Shown here in pieces: positions 2,046 through 31,240 of a stretch of DNA of 44,552 bases. Position 1 is the first letter of the stretch. Each line of letters starts with the position of its first letter. The notes below the pieces were generated by a model. That model was not told where the DNA came from, did not search any database, and was given only the letters and a program-made list of their open reading frames with translations. Source of the stretch: Deltaproteobacteria bacterium (GTDB lineage: Bacteria > Desulfobacterota > GWC2-55-46); contig JADLDY010000031.1 in NCBI GenBank assembly GCA_020846435.1, positions 85,557-130,108 of the forward strand, given 5' to 3'. Both the position numbers and the translations under genes were made by a program.

Positions 2046-2531
<486 letters not shown>

Positions 2532-3188
2532 TTAGTGGGCCTCTTCCAGCGCCCCGCCTATATACATCATCGAAAGGAGCGCGAAGATAAAGGCCTGTAT
2601 GAACACGACCAGGACTCCCAATACGGTCGAAAGGGCCAGGAGCGGATAGGCTATCGGCATGAGTATGAGGAGAACGCCGACTATCTGCTCGTGTCCCATT
2701 ATGTTTCCGAAAAGACGAAGCGAGAGGGATACCGGCCTCGCGAGGTGCCCGATTATCTCTATAGGGAGCATCAAGGGCGCGAGCCACCAGACAGGGCCGG
2801 TGAAGTGCTTGAAGTAAGAGAGCCCGTGCTCCTTGACGCCTATAACATGGGTCGCGAGGAAGACGATGAGCGCGAGGGCCAGCGTCGTGTTGAGGTTGGC
2901 GGTCGGCGGCAGAAGCCCCGGTATGAGGCCTAAGAGGTTCGAGACAAAGATGAAGACCGCGAAGGTGAGGACGAATGGGAAGTACTTCCTGCCCTTGTGG
3001 CCCATCGTCTCGTCAACGAGGTTGCTGAAGGCCGTTATGACGAGCTCCAGTATCGACTGAGTCGCTCCCGGGACAAGCCTCAATCTCCTGGCCATCATCA
3101 TGGAGAATATCGAGAGGCCTATGATGATGTATATCATGAAGGCCGTATGCGCCTGCAGCCCGAATGTCGGGATTATCGTGTCATGCAT
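2532..3188 (-). CDS. atpB: ATP synthase F0 subunit a
   Basis: 218-residue polytopic protein with about five or six membrane helices. The essential Arg of subunit a is visible in the helix SLSLRLFGNIMGHE, and the family landmarks VIGHLARP-like (EIIGHLARPVSLSLR) and the C-terminal VLVVFIQAFIFALLSMMYIG are present. It forms the ion half-channels against the c-ring. The start ATG at 3188 has GGGAGGAAAG upstream, inside the overlapping 3' end of atpI (8-base overlap), so translation is likely coupled. The gap to atpE is 141 bases. No subunit b gene follows, which fits a genome with the F1 genes (and b) elsewhere. Confidence 0.95.
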   Translation of the reverse strand: MHDTIIPTFGLQAHTAFMIYIIIGLSIFSMMMARRLRLVPGATQSILELVITAFSNLVDETMGHKGRKYFPFVLTFAVFIFVSNLLGLIPGLLPPTANLNTTLALALIVFLATHVIGVKEHGLSYFKHFTGPVWWLAPLMLPIEIIGHLARPVSLSLRLFGNIMGHEQIVGVLLILMPIAYPLLALSTVLGVLVVFIQAFIFALLSMMYIGGALEEAH

Positions 3189-3996: not shown

Positions 3997-4114
3997 CATT
4001 TTTCCTTACAATTCTTTTATGAGTTTTGCCTGTCCCTGGGTGGACGTCCGCTTTGAACGGGCACCCGGGGCTTGAGTCCGGCTTGACAAATTGTCCCCAC
4101 AAGGAGATGAAACC

Positions 4115-6625
4115 GTGAAGAGCATCATTATGGCAGGGGGCTTCGGCACGAGGCTCCGCCCGCTTACCAACAACCTTCCGAAGCCGATGGTGCCTATGGT
4201 GAACAGGCCCATGATGGAGCATATAATAGAGCTCCTGAAGAAGAACTCGATAACCGACCTGACCGCTCTATTATACTTCCAGCCTGAGATGATAAGCGAG
4301 AAGCTCGGGGACGGCTCGGCCTTCGGCGTAAAGCTCGGCTACACAACCCTCACGGTCGACCTCGGCACAGCAGGGGCCGTGGGCAGCGCCATGAGAAGGT
4401 TCGAAGGGGACGAGACGACCCTCATCATAAGCGGCGACGTCTTGACCGACATCGACCTTAACAAGGCCGTCCAGTTCCACAAGGAAAAGGGCTCTGTCGC
4501 GACGATTGTCCTGACGAGGGTAGAAAACCCGCTGCCTTTCGGCATAGTCATAACCGACGAGGACGGCAGGATAATGAGGTTTCTGGAGAAGCCGAGCTGG
4601 GGCGAGGTCTTCAGCGACACCATCAACACCGGCATATACATACTCGAAAAGAAGGTCCTGGACTTCATCCCTGTCGACAAGGAATTCGACTTCAGCAAGG
4701 ACCTCTTTCCGGCCCTGCTGGAAAAGGGCGAGCCCATTTACGGCTACACGGCCAAGGGCTACTGGAAGGATGTCGGCAGCCTCGAAGAGTACAGGATAGC
4801 CAACATGGACATATTGCAGGGGCTCGTCACCGTTGACATACACGGCGAACAGATAGAGGGCAGGCGGTTGTGGGTAGGCAAGGACTCGCGCATCGATTTC
4901 ACCGCCAAGTTCGAAGGCTCGGTAGTCATAGGGGAGAACTGCAGGGTAGGGGCTGACGCGAGGATATCCAATTCGATCATCGGCCCGAACTCGGTCGTCG
5001 AGGAGGGCGCCTACATAAGAGACTCTGTCCTCTGGGACAACACGAGGGCCGCGCGCGGCGCGTCGATGCACGAGGATGTCATCGGCAGCCACAGCGAAAT
5101 CCTTGAGCAGGCCCACCTCGCAGAGGGCGTCATCGTAAGCGACCACTGCTCGATAGGGCGGCATGCCACAGTCAAGGCCAATGTAAAGGTATGGCCGTAC
5201 AAGATAGTCGAGGACGACGCCACTCTGGCCTCTTCGCTTATCTGGGGCGAGAAGTGGAGCAGGAACATCTTCTCGACTTACGGAGTAACCGGTCTGGCCA
5301 ACATAGAGATATCCCCTGAGTTCGCGGCCAAGCTCGGCGCTTCCTACGGTGCGTCATTGAAGAAGGGGTCTGCCGTTTCTACCTCGAGGGACGCACACAA
5401 GACTTCGCGCATGATAAACCGGGCCATCATGACCGGCATACTCTCAACAGGCGTCAATGTCCACGACTACGGGGTGACGCCGATGCCTGTCGTCAGGTTC
5501 CTTTCGAGGAGCGGCACCGAGGCCGGAGGCATACACACCCGCCGCTCTCCTTTTGACACGCAGCTCATTGATCTCAAGTTCTTCGACAACAAGGGCCTCG
5601 ACCTGCATCCCGGGTATGAAAAGACCATTGAGAAACTCTTTTTCAGGGAGGATTTTCCGAGGGTCTCGATGGACGAAACAGGCGAGATGGTCTTCCCGAT
5701 ACACGCCTTCGAATCTTACCAGGACAGCTTCATGTCAATGATAGACTCATCTACCGTGAGGAAGGCGAAGTTCAAGTTCATCCTCGACTACTCGTACGGT
5801 TCTTCTTCGAGGCTCTTCCCGTCGATACTCGGCAAGCTCAACTGCGAGGTCATAGCCTTGAACGCGAACCTCGACGGCTCCAAGATGACCAAGACCGCCG
5901 AAGAGTTCCAGAGGTCGATGGACCAGATATCCTCCATCGTCCGCTCGCTCGACGCTGACATGGGCTTTTACCTGGACGCTGGCGGAGAGAAGGTCTTTTT
6001 CTTCGACGAGACCGGAGAGGCCCTCGACGGAGACACGGCCCTCAACATCGTCACCCTCCTTACGCTCAAGTACTGCAAGGAAACGGGCAGGAAGGGGCAC
6101 ATAGCGGTCCCCATAACGGCTTCGCGCGCCATTGACAGGATGGCCGAGACCTACGGCTTTGCCGTCAAGAGGACCAAGACGACCGGCAGGGGGCTGATGG
6201 AAGCGGCCGCCGAAGAGGGCACTCTTTTCGTCGGAGAACAGCTTGGCGGCTACATATTCCCCGAGTTCCAGCCGAACTTCGACGGCATGTACGCGATAGC
6301 CAAGGTCCTCGAGATGCTCGCCCGCCACGGCGCGCGCCTTCACAAGCTCATGCGCGAGATCCCTCCTTCCATCATCATGAAGGAGAAGGTCTCCTGCTCG
6401 TTCGAGAGCAAGGGCATGATAATGAGGCGGCTCGCCGAGGAATCGAGGAATCTCGAAACTGTACTTCTCGACGGGATAAAGATAAAATTCGGCGATGACT
6501 GGCTTGTCGCGTACCCGAGCCAGGACATGCCGTACTTCCACCTCGTTGCCGAGGCCTCCACCGATGAGGCGGCGACAGCCCTAATAAACCAGTACTCAGA
6601 GAAGATAAGAGAATGGCAGAGATAA
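4115..6625 (+). CDS. sugar-phosphate nucleotidyltransferase fused to a degenerate phosphomannomutase domain
   Basis: 836 residues. The N-terminus MKSIIMAGGFGTRLRPLT is the nucleotide-binding loop of sugar-1-phosphate nucleotidyltransferases, followed by a catalytic core (ISGDVL, FLEKPSWGE, NTGIYI, YWKDVGSLEEY) to about residue 235, then left-handed beta-helix hexapeptides (VVIGENCRVGADARISNS and on) to about 385. The remainder aligns in outline with alpha-D-phosphohexomutases (annotated in relatives as mannose-1-phosphate guanylyltransferase/phosphomannomutase), but the four mutase signatures are altered: the phosphoserine loop reads GGIHTRRSPFD instead of TASHNP, the metal loop FYLDAGGEKVFF instead of DGDxDR, the sugar loop GEQLGGYIFPE instead of GEESGH, and the phosphate loop YPSQDMPYFHLV instead of SGTEPxxR. 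The GTG start at 4115 has AAGGAGAT upstream; the ATG at 4145 lies inside the nucleotide loop. The nucleotidyltransferase is probably active (NDP-mannose or similar); the mutase half is probably not. Overlaps the next gene by 13 bases. Confidence 0.85.
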   Translation: MKSIIMAGGFGTRLRPLTNNLPKPMVPMVNRPMMEHIIELLKKNSITDLTALLYFQPEMISEKLGDGSAFGVKLGYTTLTVDLGTAGAVGSAMRRFEGDETTLIISGDVLTDIDLNKAVQFHKEKGSVATIVLTRVENPLPFGIVITDEDGRIMRFLEKPSWGEVFSDTINTGIYILEKKVLDFIPVDKEFDFSKDLFPALLEKGEPIYGYTAKGYWKDVGSLEEYRIANMDILQGLVTVDIHGEQIEGRRLWVGKDSRIDFTAKFEGSVVIGENCRVGADARISNSIIGPNSVVEEGAYIRDSVLWDNTRAARGASMHEDVIGSHSEILEQAHLAEGVIVSDHCSIGRHATVKANVKVWPYKIVEDDATLASSLIWGEKWSRNIFSTYGVTGLANIEISPEFAAKLGASYGASLKKGSAVSTSRDAHKTSRMINRAIMTGILSTGVNVHDYGVTPMPVVRFLSRSGTEAGGIHTRRSPFDTQLIDLKFFDNKGLDLHPGYEKTIEKLFFREDFPRVSMDETGEMVFPIHAFESYQDSFMSMIDSSTVRKAKFKFILDYSYGSSSRLFPSILGKLNCEVIALNANLDGSKMTKTAEEFQRSMDQISSIVRSLDADMGFYLDAGGEKVFFFDETGEALDGDTALNIVTLLTLKYCKETGRKGHIAVPITASRAIDRMAETYGFAVKRTKTTGRGLMEAAAEEGTLFVGEQLGGYIFPEFQPNFDGMYAIAKVLEMLARHGARLHKLMREIPPSIIMKEKVSCSFESKGMIMRRLAEESRNLETVLLDGIKIKFGDDWLVAYPSQDMPYFHLVAEASTDEAATALINQYSEKIREWQR

Positions 6626-7254
6626 TAGCGATACCGGTAGGCGCCCTTGAAGTCAACTGTTACATAGTCTGGGACAGGGCGACACTTGATGGCGTGATAA
6701 TCGACCCCGGCGCCGACGCCGGCGAGATAGAGGCGGCTGTGAAGGAAAACGGCGTAAAGGTCAGGTGCGTGCTCAACACGCACGGCCACTTCGACCATGT
6801 AGGGGCGAACAAAGCGATGAAGGCCGCCTTCAAGGTGCCAGTGGCCATACACCCTGATGACGCCCCCTTGATGGCCGACGCGCACGAGCACGGCATCTTC
6901 TTCGGTGTCGAGACGCCAAAGCAGGCCGCCCCGGACATACTCCTCGAAGACGGGCAATCAATGGAGTTCGGCCCCTTGAAGTTCAAGGTCATTCATACTC
7001 CGGGACATACCAGAGGCGGCGTATGCCTTTATCTGGAGGGCGCGAAGGCCCTGTTCACAGGGGACACGCTTTTCGCGGGCTCTGTCGGACGGACTGATTT
7101 TGAGGGCGGCTCGATGGATGAACTGATGTCGTCGATTTCCCGGAAGCTCCTTTCCCTCGACGACAAGGTGATGGTGCTGCCGGGACACGGCCCTTCGTCG
7201 ACCATAGGCGAAGAGAGAATGACGAACCCGTATCTCGCCGGGATAAAGAGGTAA
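6613..7254 (+). CDS. MBL-fold metallohydrolase, glyoxalase II-like
   Basis: 213 residues with the full binuclear zinc site of the metallo-beta-lactamase fold: THGHFDH (motif 2), HTPGHTRGG (motif 3), GDTLFAGSVGRTD (motif 4) and a final LPGHGPSST. This compact glyoxalase II-type subfamily hydrolyses thioesters such as S-lactoylglutathione or related small substrates in the cytoplasm, but the true substrate is often unknown. It lacks the long C-terminal domain of classical glyoxalase II. The start overlaps the 3' end of the upstream fusion gene by 13 bases, and coaBC follows after 4 bases, so the three are co-transcribed. Confidence 0.88.
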   Translation: MAEIIAIPVGALEVNCYIVWDRATLDGVIIDPGADAGEIEAAVKENGVKVRCVLNTHGHFDHVGANKAMKAAFKVPVAIHPDDAPLMADAHEHGIFFGVETPKQAAPDILLEDGQSMEFGPLKFKVIHTPGHTRGGVCLYLEGAKALFTGDTLFAGSVGRTDFEGGSMDELMSSISRKLLSLDDKVMVLPGHGPSSTIGEERMTNPYLAGIKR

Positions 7255-7258
7255 GACG

Positions 7259-8434
7259 GTGATCCTCAAAAACAAGAGAATAACTCTCGGAGTCACCGGC
7301 GCCATCTCTGCCTACAAGGCCCTTGAGCTCACGAGGCTCCTCGTAAAGGAAGGCGCTGAAGTCTGTCCTGTCATGACGCGCTCGGCAACCGAGTTCATAA
7401 CGCCGTTGAGCCTCTCGACCCTTTCGAAAAACCCGGTCTCAACGGAATTGTTCGACCTTACCGGCGAGACGAAGATAAGCCACATAGACCTGGCCCAGGC
7501 CTGTGACCTCATAATCGTCGCCCCGGCGACCGCCAACATCATCGGCAAGGCCGCGAACGGACTTGCCGACGACCTGCTCTCAACGATACTCATGGCGGCC
7601 AAGGCTCCGGTCCTTTTCGCGCCGTCGATGAACTCTCAGATGTGGGCGAACGGGGCTCTTCAGGAGAACGTCAGGAAGCTTAAGTCGAGGGGCTGCCTTT
7701 TCGTCGGCCCTTCTGAGGGCGACCTTGCCTGCGGCTACGCTGGCACCGGCAGGCTAGCGCCAATTGATGAGATACTCGAAGCGGCCAAAGAGGCTTTGAC
7801 TCCTCAGGACTTGAAAGGCGAGAAGGTGCTGGTCACCGCCGGCCCAACGAGAGAGCCTATCGACCCTGTCCGGTATGTGTCGAACGCCTCTTCCGGCAAG
7901 ATGGGGTATGCTATTGCGAAAGCCGCCAGGAGAAGGGGCGCAGAGGTCGTGCTCGTCTCAGGCCCTTCGTTCCTGCCGAGGCCGGAAGGCGTGACCTTCG
8001 TGCCGGTGCGCAGCGCCGAAGAGATGCTGGACGCGTGCGTCAGGCACTTTCCGCAGTCGACGCTCGTCATCATGGCCGCGGCTGTCGCTGATTACAGGCC
8101 GACCATAAGCTACCCGAGCAAGGTCAAGAAGGACGCCAGAGTTTTATCGATCGAGATGGAGCGGACGGAAGACGTATTGAAGAAGCTCGGCACGCTCAAG
8201 AAAAAAGGGCAGACCCTCATTGGCTTTGCCCTCGAGACCGACAGCCTCGAGGAGAACGCGAAAAAGAAGCTAAAGGATAAAGGGCTCGATCTTGTGGTCG
8301 CCAACACCCCGGCAGGACTCGACAGCGATACCAACCAGGTGACGATACTCGGGAGAGACGGCCTTGTCGACAGGCTCACTCCTTTGCCAAAGGATGAAGT
8401 GGCTGACATGATACTGGATAAGGCCTTGCGGTAA
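7259..8434 (+). CDS. coaBC: bifunctional phosphopantothenoylcysteine decarboxylase / phosphopantothenate-cysteine ligase
   Basis: 391 residues, the standard length of CoaBC. The N-terminal flavoprotein decarboxylase (CoaC) has GVTGAISAYKALEL, the active-site His in SHIDLA, the PATANIIGK motif, FAPSMNSQMW, and the substrate-lid Cys in GDLACGYAGTGR. The C-terminal ligase (CoaB) begins near residue 183 with TAGPTREPIDPVRYVSNASS and GKMGYAIA and has the AAAVADYRP segment. Together they convert 4'-phosphopantothenate plus Cys (using CTP) to 4'-phosphopantetheine in coenzyme A synthesis. Start GTG. Last gene of its operon; terminator at 8461. Confidence 0.95.
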   Translation: MILKNKRITLGVTGAISAYKALELTRLLVKEGAEVCPVMTRSATEFITPLSLSTLSKNPVSTELFDLTGETKISHIDLAQACDLIIVAPATANIIGKAANGLADDLLSTILMAAKAPVLFAPSMNSQMWANGALQENVRKLKSRGCLFVGPSEGDLACGYAGTGRLAPIDEILEAAKEALTPQDLKGEKVLVTAGPTREPIDPVRYVSNASSGKMGYAIAKAARRRGAEVVLVSGPSFLPRPEGVTFVPVRSAEEMLDACVRHFPQSTLVIMAAAVADYRPTISYPSKVKKDARVLSIEMERTEDVLKKLGTLKKKGQTLIGFALETDSLEENAKKKLKDKGLDLVVANTPAGLDSDTNQVTILGRDGLVDRLTPLPKDEVADMILDKALR

Positions 8435-28282: not shown

Positions 28283-31228
28283 TTAAGGCCTGTTGAGGAG
28301 CATCGGCTCTATGAGGGCCGCCTTCTGCGGCCTGCTGAAAAGGAAGCCCTGGGCTGATCCGCAGCCCAGGTCGTTTAAAATGGCGAGCTGCTCTTCGGTC
28401 TCGATGCCTTCGGCCACGACGTCGAGCCCCAGACTGTTGGCTATGGCTATTATGCCCATGGCCATTGACAGGCTGCTCGAGTCGGTCGCGATGTCGCGGA
28501 TGAACGAGCGGTCGATTTTCAGCGTGTCTATGGGCAGCTCCTTCAAATAGCTCAGGGAAGAGTAGCCTGTGCCGAAGTCGTCGATATAGACCAGAAGGCC
28601 GAGCTTGCGCACTTCTTTCAAGGTGCCGACGAATATCTCCATGTTGTTCATGAGCTCGCTTTCGGTCACTTCCATCGCGAGCTTCACTGAGCGGGAGCCG
28701 AAGTCAAAGCCGAGGATGCGCTGGAGTCGCTCGAAAAAATCAGGGTGGCGTATCTGCCTCACCGAGACGTTCACGCCGAGCCTCAGGTCCCTTATACCGC
28801 GCTTCTCCCACTCGAGGGCCTGCGCAACGGCTGTTTTCAATACCCATTCGCCAATGGGCACAATAAGGCCCGTCTCCTCGGCCACTGGGATGAACTTGTC
28901 GGGCGGCACGTGGCCGAGCTTGGCGTTAGTCCACCTTAGAAGGGCCTCGACGCCTGTGACCGAGCGGTCTTCGCAGTTGACTATCGGCTGGTAGAAGAGC
29001 TCGAATTCCTTCTTCTCGAGCGCGTGTCTCAGCTCCTGGGCTATCCTTCTCCTTTCCCTGGCCCTGAGGTTAATCTCCTGCGAGTAGTACTGGGCGCTTC
29101 CGGCACTGGAGGCGTCAGTCGCGTGCATGGCGAGCTCGGTGTTCCTCATCAGGTCCTGCGTGGAAGCGCCGTCGTCAGGGTATATGGCGATGCCTGAGTA
29201 GACTTTTATGAAGATATCCTCGCCATTGATGGTCACTGACGCCGGCAGGTCGCCCATCATCTTTTCCACGACCATGACAGCGTCCTCCCTGCTGGCCAAA
29301 TCCAGGAGTATGACGCCGAAGTTGTCGTTGCCGAGCCGGGCGACAGTGTCGCCCTCCCTTACAGAGGCCGCCAGATAATTGGCAAGTTTTTTCAGGACCT
29401 CGTCGCCCGCCCTGTGGCCGAGCGTGTCGTTTATGCCGCTGAAGTCCTCTATGTCGAGCATGGCGACCGCGACGACCCTCTGGTTGTACTTGGCGCGCAG
29501 CAATCCCTGGTTCAGGTGGTCTTCGAAGACCCACCTGTTGACGAGCCCGGTGAGCATGTCGTATCTGGAGAGGTAGTCTAGGAGCTTTTCCTTTTCTATG
29601 TTTTCGAGTCCCAAAGAGGTGTTGGCCGCGAGGTCGAGGAGGAGCTTGAGTTCGTCCCTGTCCCTGAAGCAGCCCTGCTCGGTTGAATAAAGGGCGAGCG
29701 CGCCGACGCTCTTCTCCCCTATCCTGAGCGGAAAGGCTGCGGCAGACCCGTAGCCGTATTCGTCGATGAGGTCTCTGAGGGGGGCAGTACTCTCGTCGTG
29801 TTCAAAGTCGCCGGCTATTATTTCCCTGTTCTCCCTGAATGCCCTGAGGGCAAGGGGGACCGCCTCCCTGTCGAGCGCAGAGCGCTCCATGAGCCTGTCT
29901 ATGTACCTCTTGTCCTTCCCGGCCCAGGCCGTTGGTACAAGCTTTCCCGTGCCGTCGTCGAGGGCCGCCCACGCGAGCGAAAAACAGCCGTGCTCGACGG
30001 CTATGCGGCAGGCCTCCTTCAGGAGCCCGTCTTTTTCCAGGCCGCGTATTATCGCCCCGTTTATCGCGCTCAGGACGGCGTATATCCTGTTGAGGCGGGT
30101 AAAGCGCGCGAGGTTTCGCTCCGCGTCCTCCTCGCGCTCTTCGAGGGAGTCGGCCATCTCGTTGAGGCTCACGGCCAGAGAGTTGAACTCGGCGCTGCCC
30201 ATGTCGGGCAGCGCCCTGGCCCCGCGTTTGCCAGCGCCGAGCTCCTCTGTCACGACGATGAGCTTCTGTACGCTCTTCATTATGAGTTTTTCCGAGGCAA
30301 GGAACGCGACAAGGAGGACGACGGTTATTATGAGGACCGTCGTCAGAAGGTTCCTCGCCAGAAGCGTGTCGGCTTTGGAGTAGACTACCGAGGCGGGTAT
30401 GCCGGATATGACGAAGATGCTGCTGTCGCGCGAGAGGTGGAACCTGATGAAGGCGTAGACGCGCAGAGTCATGTCCGCGCCGACGAGGCTGGCGTACCCC
30501 TCGGCCTCACCGCTCTCAAGGAGAGAGGCGAGCTCCGAGTCCTTAAGGCTGCTGCCTATCCATTTTTTATCATAAGGGTACCTGGCGAGCACCGTTCCAG
30601 CGCTGTCCGCGATTATGATGAACTGCCCCTGCTGGGTCGGAAGCGAGGAGAGTTTTTTGTCGAGCACGGTTATGGGGAGGGCCGCGAATAGAACGCCTTT
30701 TAGAGAGCCACTCTCGATGACCGGGTATCCGAAGTTGATGGTCGCCACTCCCGTGATCGCCCCTATCTGATAGTCTCCCATGGAGAATTTAAGGGTCTTG
30801 GCCGCCCGCTTGAAATACGGCCTGCCCCCAGCATAGACAGGGGCCTTGAATGGAACGGCGCTTGCCAGGACCATCCCGTCAGGGCTTATGAAGCCGATGT
30901 TCGAGTAGGCGGTCTGCCTGTTGAGGAGTTCGTTGAAGAGCGCGGTCATGGCAGCCGTGTCTTCCACGTTTACAGTGTGGGCGAGCACTGAAAGAAGGGT
31001 CTTCGTGTCCTGCACGAGGCCCGCGTGGTCGGTCGAGACCCTGCGGACCGCCGCGAGGGCTTCGTTCCTGGCCTCGGCCGATTCATGGCGGCGCTGTTCG
31101 ATGTTGTTGTAGACGATGAGGGTGAGGGCCGGCAGGGAGGCCAGCAGCACGAGGGCTATGAGGCGCGCCCTCAGCGTTGAAAGCAGCCTCCTTGGCGGCC
31201 TGAGGCGCTTTTGTGCGGTCTTTTCCAT
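28283..31228 (-). CDS. membrane sensor with Cache, HAMP, GAF, degenerate GGDEF and EAL domains (c-di-GMP phosphodiesterase)
   Basis: 981 residues from ATG 31228 (a GTG four codons upstream is possible). Layout: TM helix (ARLIALVLLASLPALTLIVYN), periplasmic Cache-type sensor (about 45-285), second TM (LLTTVLIITVVLLVAFLASE), HAMP-like linker, GAF domain (about 395-545), GGDEF domain, EAL domain. The GGDEF signature is RLGNDNF, with Asn at two positions including the catalytic Glu, so the cyclase is probably dead. EAL residues are intact: EALLRW, NVSVRQI, EVTESELM, DDFGTGYSSLSYL, LKIDRSFI, AEGIETEEQL, QGFLFSRP. It should hydrolyse c-di-GMP in response to periplasmic and cytoplasmic ligands. Monocistronic. 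Confidence 0.9.
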   Translation of the reverse strand: MEKTAQKRLRPPRRLLSTLRARLIALVLLASLPALTLIVYNNIEQRRHESAEARNEALAAVRRVSTDHAGLVQDTKTLLSVLAHTVNVEDTAAMTALFNELLNRQTAYSNIGFISPDGMVLASAVPFKAPVYAGGRPYFKRAAKTLKFSMGDYQIGAITGVATINFGYPVIESGSLKGVLFAALPITVLDKKLSSLPTQQGQFIIIADSAGTVLARYPYDKKWIGSSLKDSELASLLESGEAEGYASLVGADMTLRVYAFIRFHLSRDSSIFVISGIPASVVYSKADTLLARNLLTTVLIITVVLLVAFLASEKLIMKSVQKLIVVTEELGAGKRGARALPDMGSAEFNSLAVSLNEMADSLEEREEDAERNLARFTRLNRIYAVLSAINGAIIRGLEKDGLLKEACRIAVEHGCFSLAWAALDDGTGKLVPTAWAGKDKRYIDRLMERSALDREAVPLALRAFRENREIIAGDFEHDESTAPLRDLIDEYGYGSAAAFPLRIGEKSVGALALYSTEQGCFRDRDELKLLLDLAANTSLGLENIEKEKLLDYLSRYDMLTGLVNRWVFEDHLNQGLLRAKYNQRVVAVAMLDIEDFSGINDTLGHRAGDEVLKKLANYLAASVREGDTVARLGNDNFGVILLDLASREDAVMVVEKMMGDLPASVTINGEDIFIKVYSGIAIYPDDGASTQDLMRNTELAMHATDASSAGSAQYYSQEINLRARERRRIAQELRHALEKKEFELFYQPIVNCEDRSVTGVEALLRWTNAKLGHVPPDKFIPVAEETGLIVPIGEWVLKTAVAQALEWEKRGIRDLRLGVNVSVRQIRHPDFFERLQRILGFDFGSRSVKLAMEVTESELMNNMEIFVGTLKEVRKLGLLVYIDDFGTGYSSLSYLKELPIDTLKIDRSFIRDIATDSSSLSMAMGIIAIANSLGLDVVAEGIETEEQLAILNDLGCGSAQGFLFSRPQKAALIEPMLLNRP

Positions 31229-31240
31229 CGTGCGAATCAC

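Follow-up and report, generated by a model that had tools for sequence, protein, structure and literature searches.

A nucleotidyltransferase fused to a probably inactive phosphohexomutase domain in a deltaproteobacterial genome and its relatives in many bacterial phyla

SCO1388 of Streptomyces coelicolor combines nucleotidyltransferase and phosphomannomutase domains and is described as appearing to be bifunctional (PMC5982138). In the same paper disruption of sco1388 left phage sensitivity unchanged, and the authors considered that the protein probably has little GDP-mannose pyrophosphorylase activity (PMC5982138). Two other papers record that insertions in SCO1388 lead to less actinorhodin (PMC6585502) and name sll1496 of Synechocystis as a mannose-1-phosphate guanyltransferase (PMC10068330); a further paper names a possibly related gene of the phosphoglucomutase/phosphomannomutase family (PMC5585712). 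We have analysed a gene that encodes such a fusion in a 44,552-nucleotide stretch of the genome of a Deltaproteobacteria bacterium (NCBI GenBank assembly GCA_020846435.1, contig JADLDY010000031.1, positions 85,557 to 130,108 of the forward strand), the whole of which is called the window. In our targeted literature searches, which covered few subscription papers, no description of a nucleotidyltransferase joined to a dead mutase domain came to light.

SCO1388 and sll1496 are members of the fusion family by annotation, and the loops were read here from Streptomyces and Nonomuraea plasmid homologues instead. We take sll1496 to have the fusion architecture, and GSU3254 is presumably a Geobacter member.

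The fusion is probably a working sugar-1-phosphate nucleotidyltransferase, an enzyme by which sugars are activated for polymer synthesis, likely acting on glucose-1-phosphate and joined to a mutase domain that was inactivated once and has been kept as a non-catalytic module. The best-supported account is that the retired mutase is a built-in regulatory or structural module of the nucleotidyltransferase, with a single ancient origin.

Catalytic loops and fold of the mutase half

The register of the catalytic loops was taken from HMMER against 1wqa, hhalign against nine live phosphoglucomutases and MAFFT with 13 live mutases. All three alignments agree in placing RRSPFD on TASHNP, DAGGEK on DGDADR, GEQLGG on GEESGG and YPSQDMP on RxSGTEP. 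Since R-R-S-P-F-D is aligned with T-A-S-H-N-P in each of them, Ser478 sits on the phosphoserine, or nucleophile, position. Apart from this serine, the T, H, N and P of the motif T/S-x-S-H-N-P/A are all substituted. The metal loop is still acidic at its first and fifth residues (D.G.E, compared with D.D.D in live enzymes), the second and third Asp are changed and DAGGEK does not match the pattern D-x-D-x-D-R. The sugar loop reads GEQLGG, compared with GEQSGG in a close relative (L063) and GEESGG or GEQSGH in live mutases. The phosphate loop YPSQDMP does not match R-x-S-G/N-T.

These changes extend to the family. We used an alignment of 58 rows, consisting of the window protein and 57 of 79 usable named loci, picked by eye to thin near-duplicates; the named loci are the 80 best among more than 593 pattern matches. 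All 13 live mutases that were compared have the complete Ser/Asp/Asp/Asp/Arg set, against none of the 58 family members. The serine position holds Ser in 42 rows and Ala in 8 (Geobacter-group members among them); the remaining rows have His, Thr, Gly, Asn or Asp. The first, second and third metal Asp are kept in 46, 3 and 0 rows, respectively, with Glu in place of the third in 56, and the Arg of the set is retained in 17. The Arg of the N-terminal GxxR is found in 3 rows and the Glu of the sugar-loop motif G-E-x-S-G in 9. Within the phosphate loop the Arg at 800 is kept once and the Thr at 804 never, and the following Arg at 809 is kept twice. An unusual replacement of the old nucleophile, His within HVRKHP, occurs at four loci (L078, L080, L082 and L093).

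Normal mutase chemistry is very unlikely because the whole phosphate loop is gone, and so are the middle Asp of the metal loop, the His-Asn that should follow the serine and the Arg that corresponds to residue 392. Judged from its sequence the domain is very likely a pseudoenzyme, and we would with high confidence expect it to have no useful mutase activity. The window's genome encodes two more mutases elsewhere, one GlmM-like and one phosphomannomutase/phosphoglucomutase (PMM/PGM)-like, in which all motifs read as live.

An AlphaFold2 model of the window protein, with the 58 family sequences as input, has a mean predicted local distance difference test score (pLDDT) of 89.2 and a predicted template-modelling score (pTM) of 0.68. 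VIA-align superposed model residues 384-834 on the phosphoglucomutase of T. kodakarensis (9du5; Z 45.7, 443 residues aligned, root-mean-square deviation 2.2), residues 381-836 on 1wqa (Z 45.3) and residues 1-400 on the GDP-mannose pyrophosphorylase 7x8k (Z 40.0, 353 aligned, root-mean-square deviation 2.6). Pfam matches the mutase half with PGM_PMM_I (2.9e-21), PGM_PMM_II (1e-15) and PGM_PMM_III (7.1e-15), and there is no Pfam match to PGM_PMM_IV in the window protein. From the superpositions on 9du5 and 1wqa the predicted mutase fold is therefore complete, including the fourth domain that Pfam misses. The TIGR03990 Arch_GlmM model scores 280.9 bits, below its curated cut-off of 439. On the AlphaFold2 model, the mutase half is a member by descent of the alpha-D-phosphohexomutase superfamily, with all four domains of the fold.

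The original prediction, made from the letters of the window, had described a phosphomannomutase domain at 5300-6610 that kept its fold-length and had lost all four catalytic signatures. The four peptides that it quoted are all present in that frame and span, the span is essentially that found here (5264-6622) and the fold-length is borne out by the superposition on 9du5. All four loops do differ from those of live mutases and the phosphate loop is really lost, but Ser478, two of the three acidic metal positions and part of the sugar loop remain. The register given for the first motif (T-R-R-S-P-F-D on T-A-S-H-N-P-x) is one residue out, the three alignments keeping Ser on Ser. An alternative serine and metal site, named beforehand as evidence to the contrary, is partly there: Ser478 and two acidic positions are usable, but the phosphate loop, the His-Asn and the middle Asp are missing. 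The call of a pseudoenzyme was right in substance, with the catalytic set absent family-wide and live mutases elsewhere in the genome; the allosteric or oligomerization module that it suggested is a conjecture.

Spread, origin and selection of the fusion

With the window's own genome counted, 35 of 40 genomes of a near-relatives set carry the fusion, as do 27 of the 197 genomes sampled from the phylum. It is found in at least 80 named loci under about twenty phylum-level labels, their titles including Deltaproteobacteria, NC10, Rokubacteria, FCPU426, Elusimicrobia, KSB1, Zixibacteria, Kryptonia, Chlorobi, Ignavibacteria, Kapaibacterium, Chloroflexi, Actinobacteria, Firmicutes and Chthonomonadaceae, among others. 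Further records come from Streptomyces, Nonomuraea and Sulfuricurvum. The Sulfuricurvum copy, on a plasmid (L038:6007-8544), has very degenerate loops and lies between phospholipase A and patatin genes, adjoining an efflux operon.

Three of 136 candidate loci (L049, L056 and L071) had no usable open frame, leaving 133 proteins, two of which (L026 and L093) are without the last part. The loops are altered in every one of the 133, and none of these proteins is a fusion with a live serine or metal loop, the transitional form. A transitional fusion with intact loops may exist, because the named set is the best 80 of the larger number of pattern matches.

In a tree of 83 mutase domains, midpoint-rooted for drawing only, a single branch (support 100/100, length 0.86) sets the 65 family members apart. 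Most likely, mutase activity was lost in one ancient event and the domain was then kept in many bacterial phyla. The gene is under purifying selection: among 13 close relatives the nucleotidyltransferase has a ratio of nonsynonymous to synonymous substitution rates (dN/dS) of 0.089 and the beta helix one of 0.122, and the values are 0.112 over the mutase domain and 0.071 over 25 loop codons. As far as sequences can tell, the absence of the catalytic set is family-wide and selected, as in a pseudoenzyme, and is a trait of the family and not the decay of one gene.

Activity and substrate of the nucleotidyltransferase

The motifs GxGTRxxP...PKP, SGD, EKP and W-x-D-[VI]-G lie at 4136-4186, 4430-4438, 4586-4594 and 4763-4777, and residues G8, G9, G11, R13, K23, D108, E158, K159, P160 and D219 are invariant in the 58 members. 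By these residues the N-terminal half looks like an active nucleotidyltransferase (PF00483), in agreement with the apparently active fusion partner of the original prediction. The closest solved sequence to this half is the cyanobacterial tlr0611 (8x7s; E 6.7e-57), deposited as UTP-glucose-1-phosphate uridylyltransferase, a 401-residue chain that, unlike the fusion, has no mutase-fold domain.

The genomic context leans towards glucose. GlgC (ADP-glucose pyrophosphorylase, TIGR02091) belongs to the same superfamily and is not known to carry a mutase domain, and genomes with the fusion tend to be those that have GlgA and lack GlgC. In the near-relatives set 34 of the 40 genomes have GlgA over the cut-off, none has GlgC and 34 have a separate GMP_PMI; in the window's genome itself GlgA and a separate GMP_PMI are present and GlgC is missing. 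In the phylum sample 17 of the 24 genomes with GlgA and without GlgC carry the fusion, against 4 of 97 with both; the Fisher p of 7e-12 for this pattern treats genomes as independent, and kinship is real, 8 of the 17 coming from one family. From this distribution, the tlr0611 match and the gene neighbours described below, glucose-1-phosphate is the more probable substrate, and we hold with moderate confidence that it, rather than mannose-1-phosphate, is used.

Several observations speak against glucose. Among NCBIfam models the N-terminal half scores highest against a mannose-1-phosphate guanylyltransferase, NF052502 (man1P_GTase_Rv), at 283.9 bits (far short of the cut-off of 440), and the GlgC model scores lower, at 132 bits (cut-off 424.9). 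The GlgA-positive, GlgC-negative fusion genomes are clustered, as the family count above indicates. GlgA is absent in 6 of the 27 fusion genomes of the phylum sample, and seven genomes of that sample have GlgA, no GlgC and no fusion. The idea that the fusion simply replaces GlgC was kept only in part: GlgC co-occurs in 4 of the 27 fusion genomes of the phylum sample, and among genomes of the named loci (23 of the 80 checked), 5 of 23 have a match over the GlgC cut-off. Within the near-relatives set four genomes with GlgA (G024, G027, G031 and G036) show neither GlgC nor, at E 1e-100, the fusion. If the glucose assignment is true, the fusion may be the nucleotide-sugar enzyme not otherwise accounted for in genomes with glycogen synthase and without GlgC.

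Proposed role, gene surroundings and related systems

We propose that the old active-site cleft has been rebuilt around the conserved Arg476, Ser478, Glu625 and Lys626. The rebuilt cleft would still bind a sugar-phosphate-like ligand, and its opening and closing might be relayed by way of the beta helix, so governing how active the nucleotidyltransferase is or how it assembles. We lean, if not strongly, towards a regulatory ligand sensor rather than a pure scaffold.

A purely structural module, in which the dead domain merely stabilizes or oligomerizes the nucleotidyltransferase and binds nothing, is unlikely, yet it is the alternative that survives best. More drift is seen in domains II-IV than in domain I. 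Whether the altered loops are conserved in the family, a point raised by the original prediction, has a divided answer: they are changed in 133 of 133 proteins, but on average are no better conserved than random blocks. The notion that the loops form one tight conserved site found no support (mean entropy 1.73 versus 2.01; of 10000 random block sets, 1665 had an entropy no higher). No column of the domain varies more than column 710 in the sugar loop, and this suits a scaffold as well as a sensor. These points count against the sensor, as do the Ala at the serine position in 8 of 58 rows and the Ser478 and two acidic residues left in the window protein, with which trace phosphoryl transfer may be possible. 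Against a pure scaffold, particular positions in the cleft, above all R476 and E625, carry new residues that hardly vary. A replacement signature is partly fixed (R476 in 54, P479 in 48, D481 in 45, E625 in 56, D802 in 45 and H809 in 44 of 58 rows), G711 and D723 are invariant, and the loop codons of the window's own clade are the most constrained set tested, with the lowest dN/dS given above.

It is improbable that catalysis persists in a residual or changed form, with Ser478, Asp621 and Glu625 accepting a phosphoryl group to give either a slow mutase or a switch whose phosphoserine signals how much bisphosphate there is. The agreed position of Ser478 fits such a role; the commonest pattern, SDGEK (20 of 58), has Ser together with an acidic residue at both metal position 1 and metal position 5, and Lys or Arg follows the metal loop in 49 of 58. 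However, the other groups required are gone, as listed above, the serine is Ala in members that include some of the Geobacter group, and live mutases are encoded nearby or elsewhere. The annotated alternative, a bifunctional GDP-mannose enzyme in which one half makes mannose-1-phosphate and the other converts it to GDP-mannose, agrees with the man1P_GTase_Rv match and with the published view of SCO1388 but deserves hardly any credence: the mutase catalytic residues are absent family-wide, the window's genome encodes GMP_PMI and a PMM-type mutase as proteins of their own, and the sco1388 disruption data in the same paper speak for little pyrophosphorylase activity (PMC5982138).

Neighbouring genes were counted at 74 named loci, five of the 79 having been dropped as without a recognised core frame. 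The next gene is a live-looking mutase (TASHNP, D.D.DR, RxSGTE) at 11 loci; 7 of these mutases have GEESGG and 4 have GEES with a different fifth or sixth residue. GH57 is the next gene at 8 loci, a GalT motif is within reach at 6 and a GlgA motif at 5, the GH57, GalT-like and GlgA neighbours being those of the Geobacter group and a few others. The neighbour cluster named after a GlgA representative covers 9 loci, the GlgA motif itself only 5. HisS (11 loci) and response regulators (18) also recur. A phosphotransferase system (PTS) EIIA (type 2) gene directly follows the fusion at 9 loci (L130:6506-6973 and similar), which suggests a further route of sugar-status control.

One extension of the proposed sensor is tentative. 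The fusion might be a second widespread glucose-1-phosphate pyrophosphorylase, serving glycogen and other glucans in GlgC-less lineages. A dead phosphoglucomutase, once captured, would run it allosterically by sensing the metabolites that pass through the live mutase of the adjacent gene, an ancient bacterial counterpart of the dead-subunit control of GMPPA and eIF2B.

The layout of the gene is given in Table 1. The open reading frame spans 4091-6625 (+). GTG is most likely the translation start, with AAGGAG eight bases ahead of it; an alternative TTG at 4091 would add 8 residues.

Table 1. Features of the fusion gene (positions in the window)
Feature	Position	Strand	Basis or remark
Whole gene, 836 residues (basis of the numbering)	4115..6625	+	GTG start at 4115, AAGGAG at 4101-4106
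Nucleotidyltransferase domain; GGFGTRLRP..PKP, SGD, EKP and WKDVG motifs intact	4115..4822	+	Pfam PF00483, 4.9e-57
Left-handed beta-helix, hexapeptide repeats	4862..5194	+	Pfam LbH_EIF2B, Hexapep; short repeated strands in model
Linker; residues 375-380 are the sole stretch with pLDDT <50	5195..5263	+	AlphaFold2 model
Phosphohexomutase-fold domain (I-IV), very probably dead as a mutase	5264..6622	+	Pfam I-III; 9du5 superposition; tree
Serine loop RRSPFD (live TASHNP); Ser478 on nucleophile position, Arg476 in place of Thr	5540..5557	+	
Metal loop DAGGEK (live DGDADR)	5975..5992	+	
Sugar loop GEQLGG (live GEESGG/GEQSGH), partly kept in the window's clade	6233..6250	+	
CxxxxKGxxMR stretch, family-conserved	6395..6427	+	C761 56/58, K766 54/58, G767 58/58, M770 56/58, R771 57/58
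Phosphate loop YPSQDMP (live RxSGTEP), lost	6512..6532	+	

In the window's clade the fusion gene is followed by genes for a metallo-beta-lactamase-fold protein and CoaBC (window 6613-8434), the former overlapping the fusion gene at its end. Upstream, on the opposite strand (2046-3188, -), are the genes for ATP synthase subunits c and a, and the same window holds a large dCache-HAMP-GAF-GGDEF-EAL protein (28283-31240, -).

Under its roughly twenty phylum-level labels the family is named mannose-1-phosphate guanylyltransferase, and in one paper probably bifunctional, owing to a mutase domain that is almost certainly without mutase chemistry. Labels that call the fusion protein a phosphomannomutase mislead, as the original prediction held, and the published bifunctional reading of SCO1388 is a case in point (PMC5982138). 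If the domain senses sugar phosphates, the fusion offers a testable case of a pathway enzyme turned regulator of the next step.

The likeness to the archaeal PGM/PMM enzymes (1wqa, 9du5; TIGR03990 Arch_GlmM) lies in a complete four-domain fold, with 30-31% identity and Z of about 45; unlike them, the window protein lacks the TASHNP, D.D.DR and RxSGTEP sets. PGM5 is a stand-alone animal protein of phosphoglucomutase fold that is not known to have normal mutase activity, a retired fold kept for another role. The herring structure (6y8x) matches our model with Z 37.5, but here the mutase domain is fused to a nucleotidyltransferase, and in bacteria. In GMPPA/GMPPB, VTC1-KJC2 and eIF2B a dead relative acts as the regulator, the dead partner being a second nucleotidyltransferase chain. 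These systems, eIF2B through its gamma and epsilon subunits, share the nucleotidyltransferase and beta helix with the fusion, and their structures (7d72, 8yre, 7kmf) are among our fold and sequence matches, the title of 7kmf referring to sugar phosphate activation of the stress sensor eIF2B. In the present case, unlike in these systems, the dead partner is a fused mutase.

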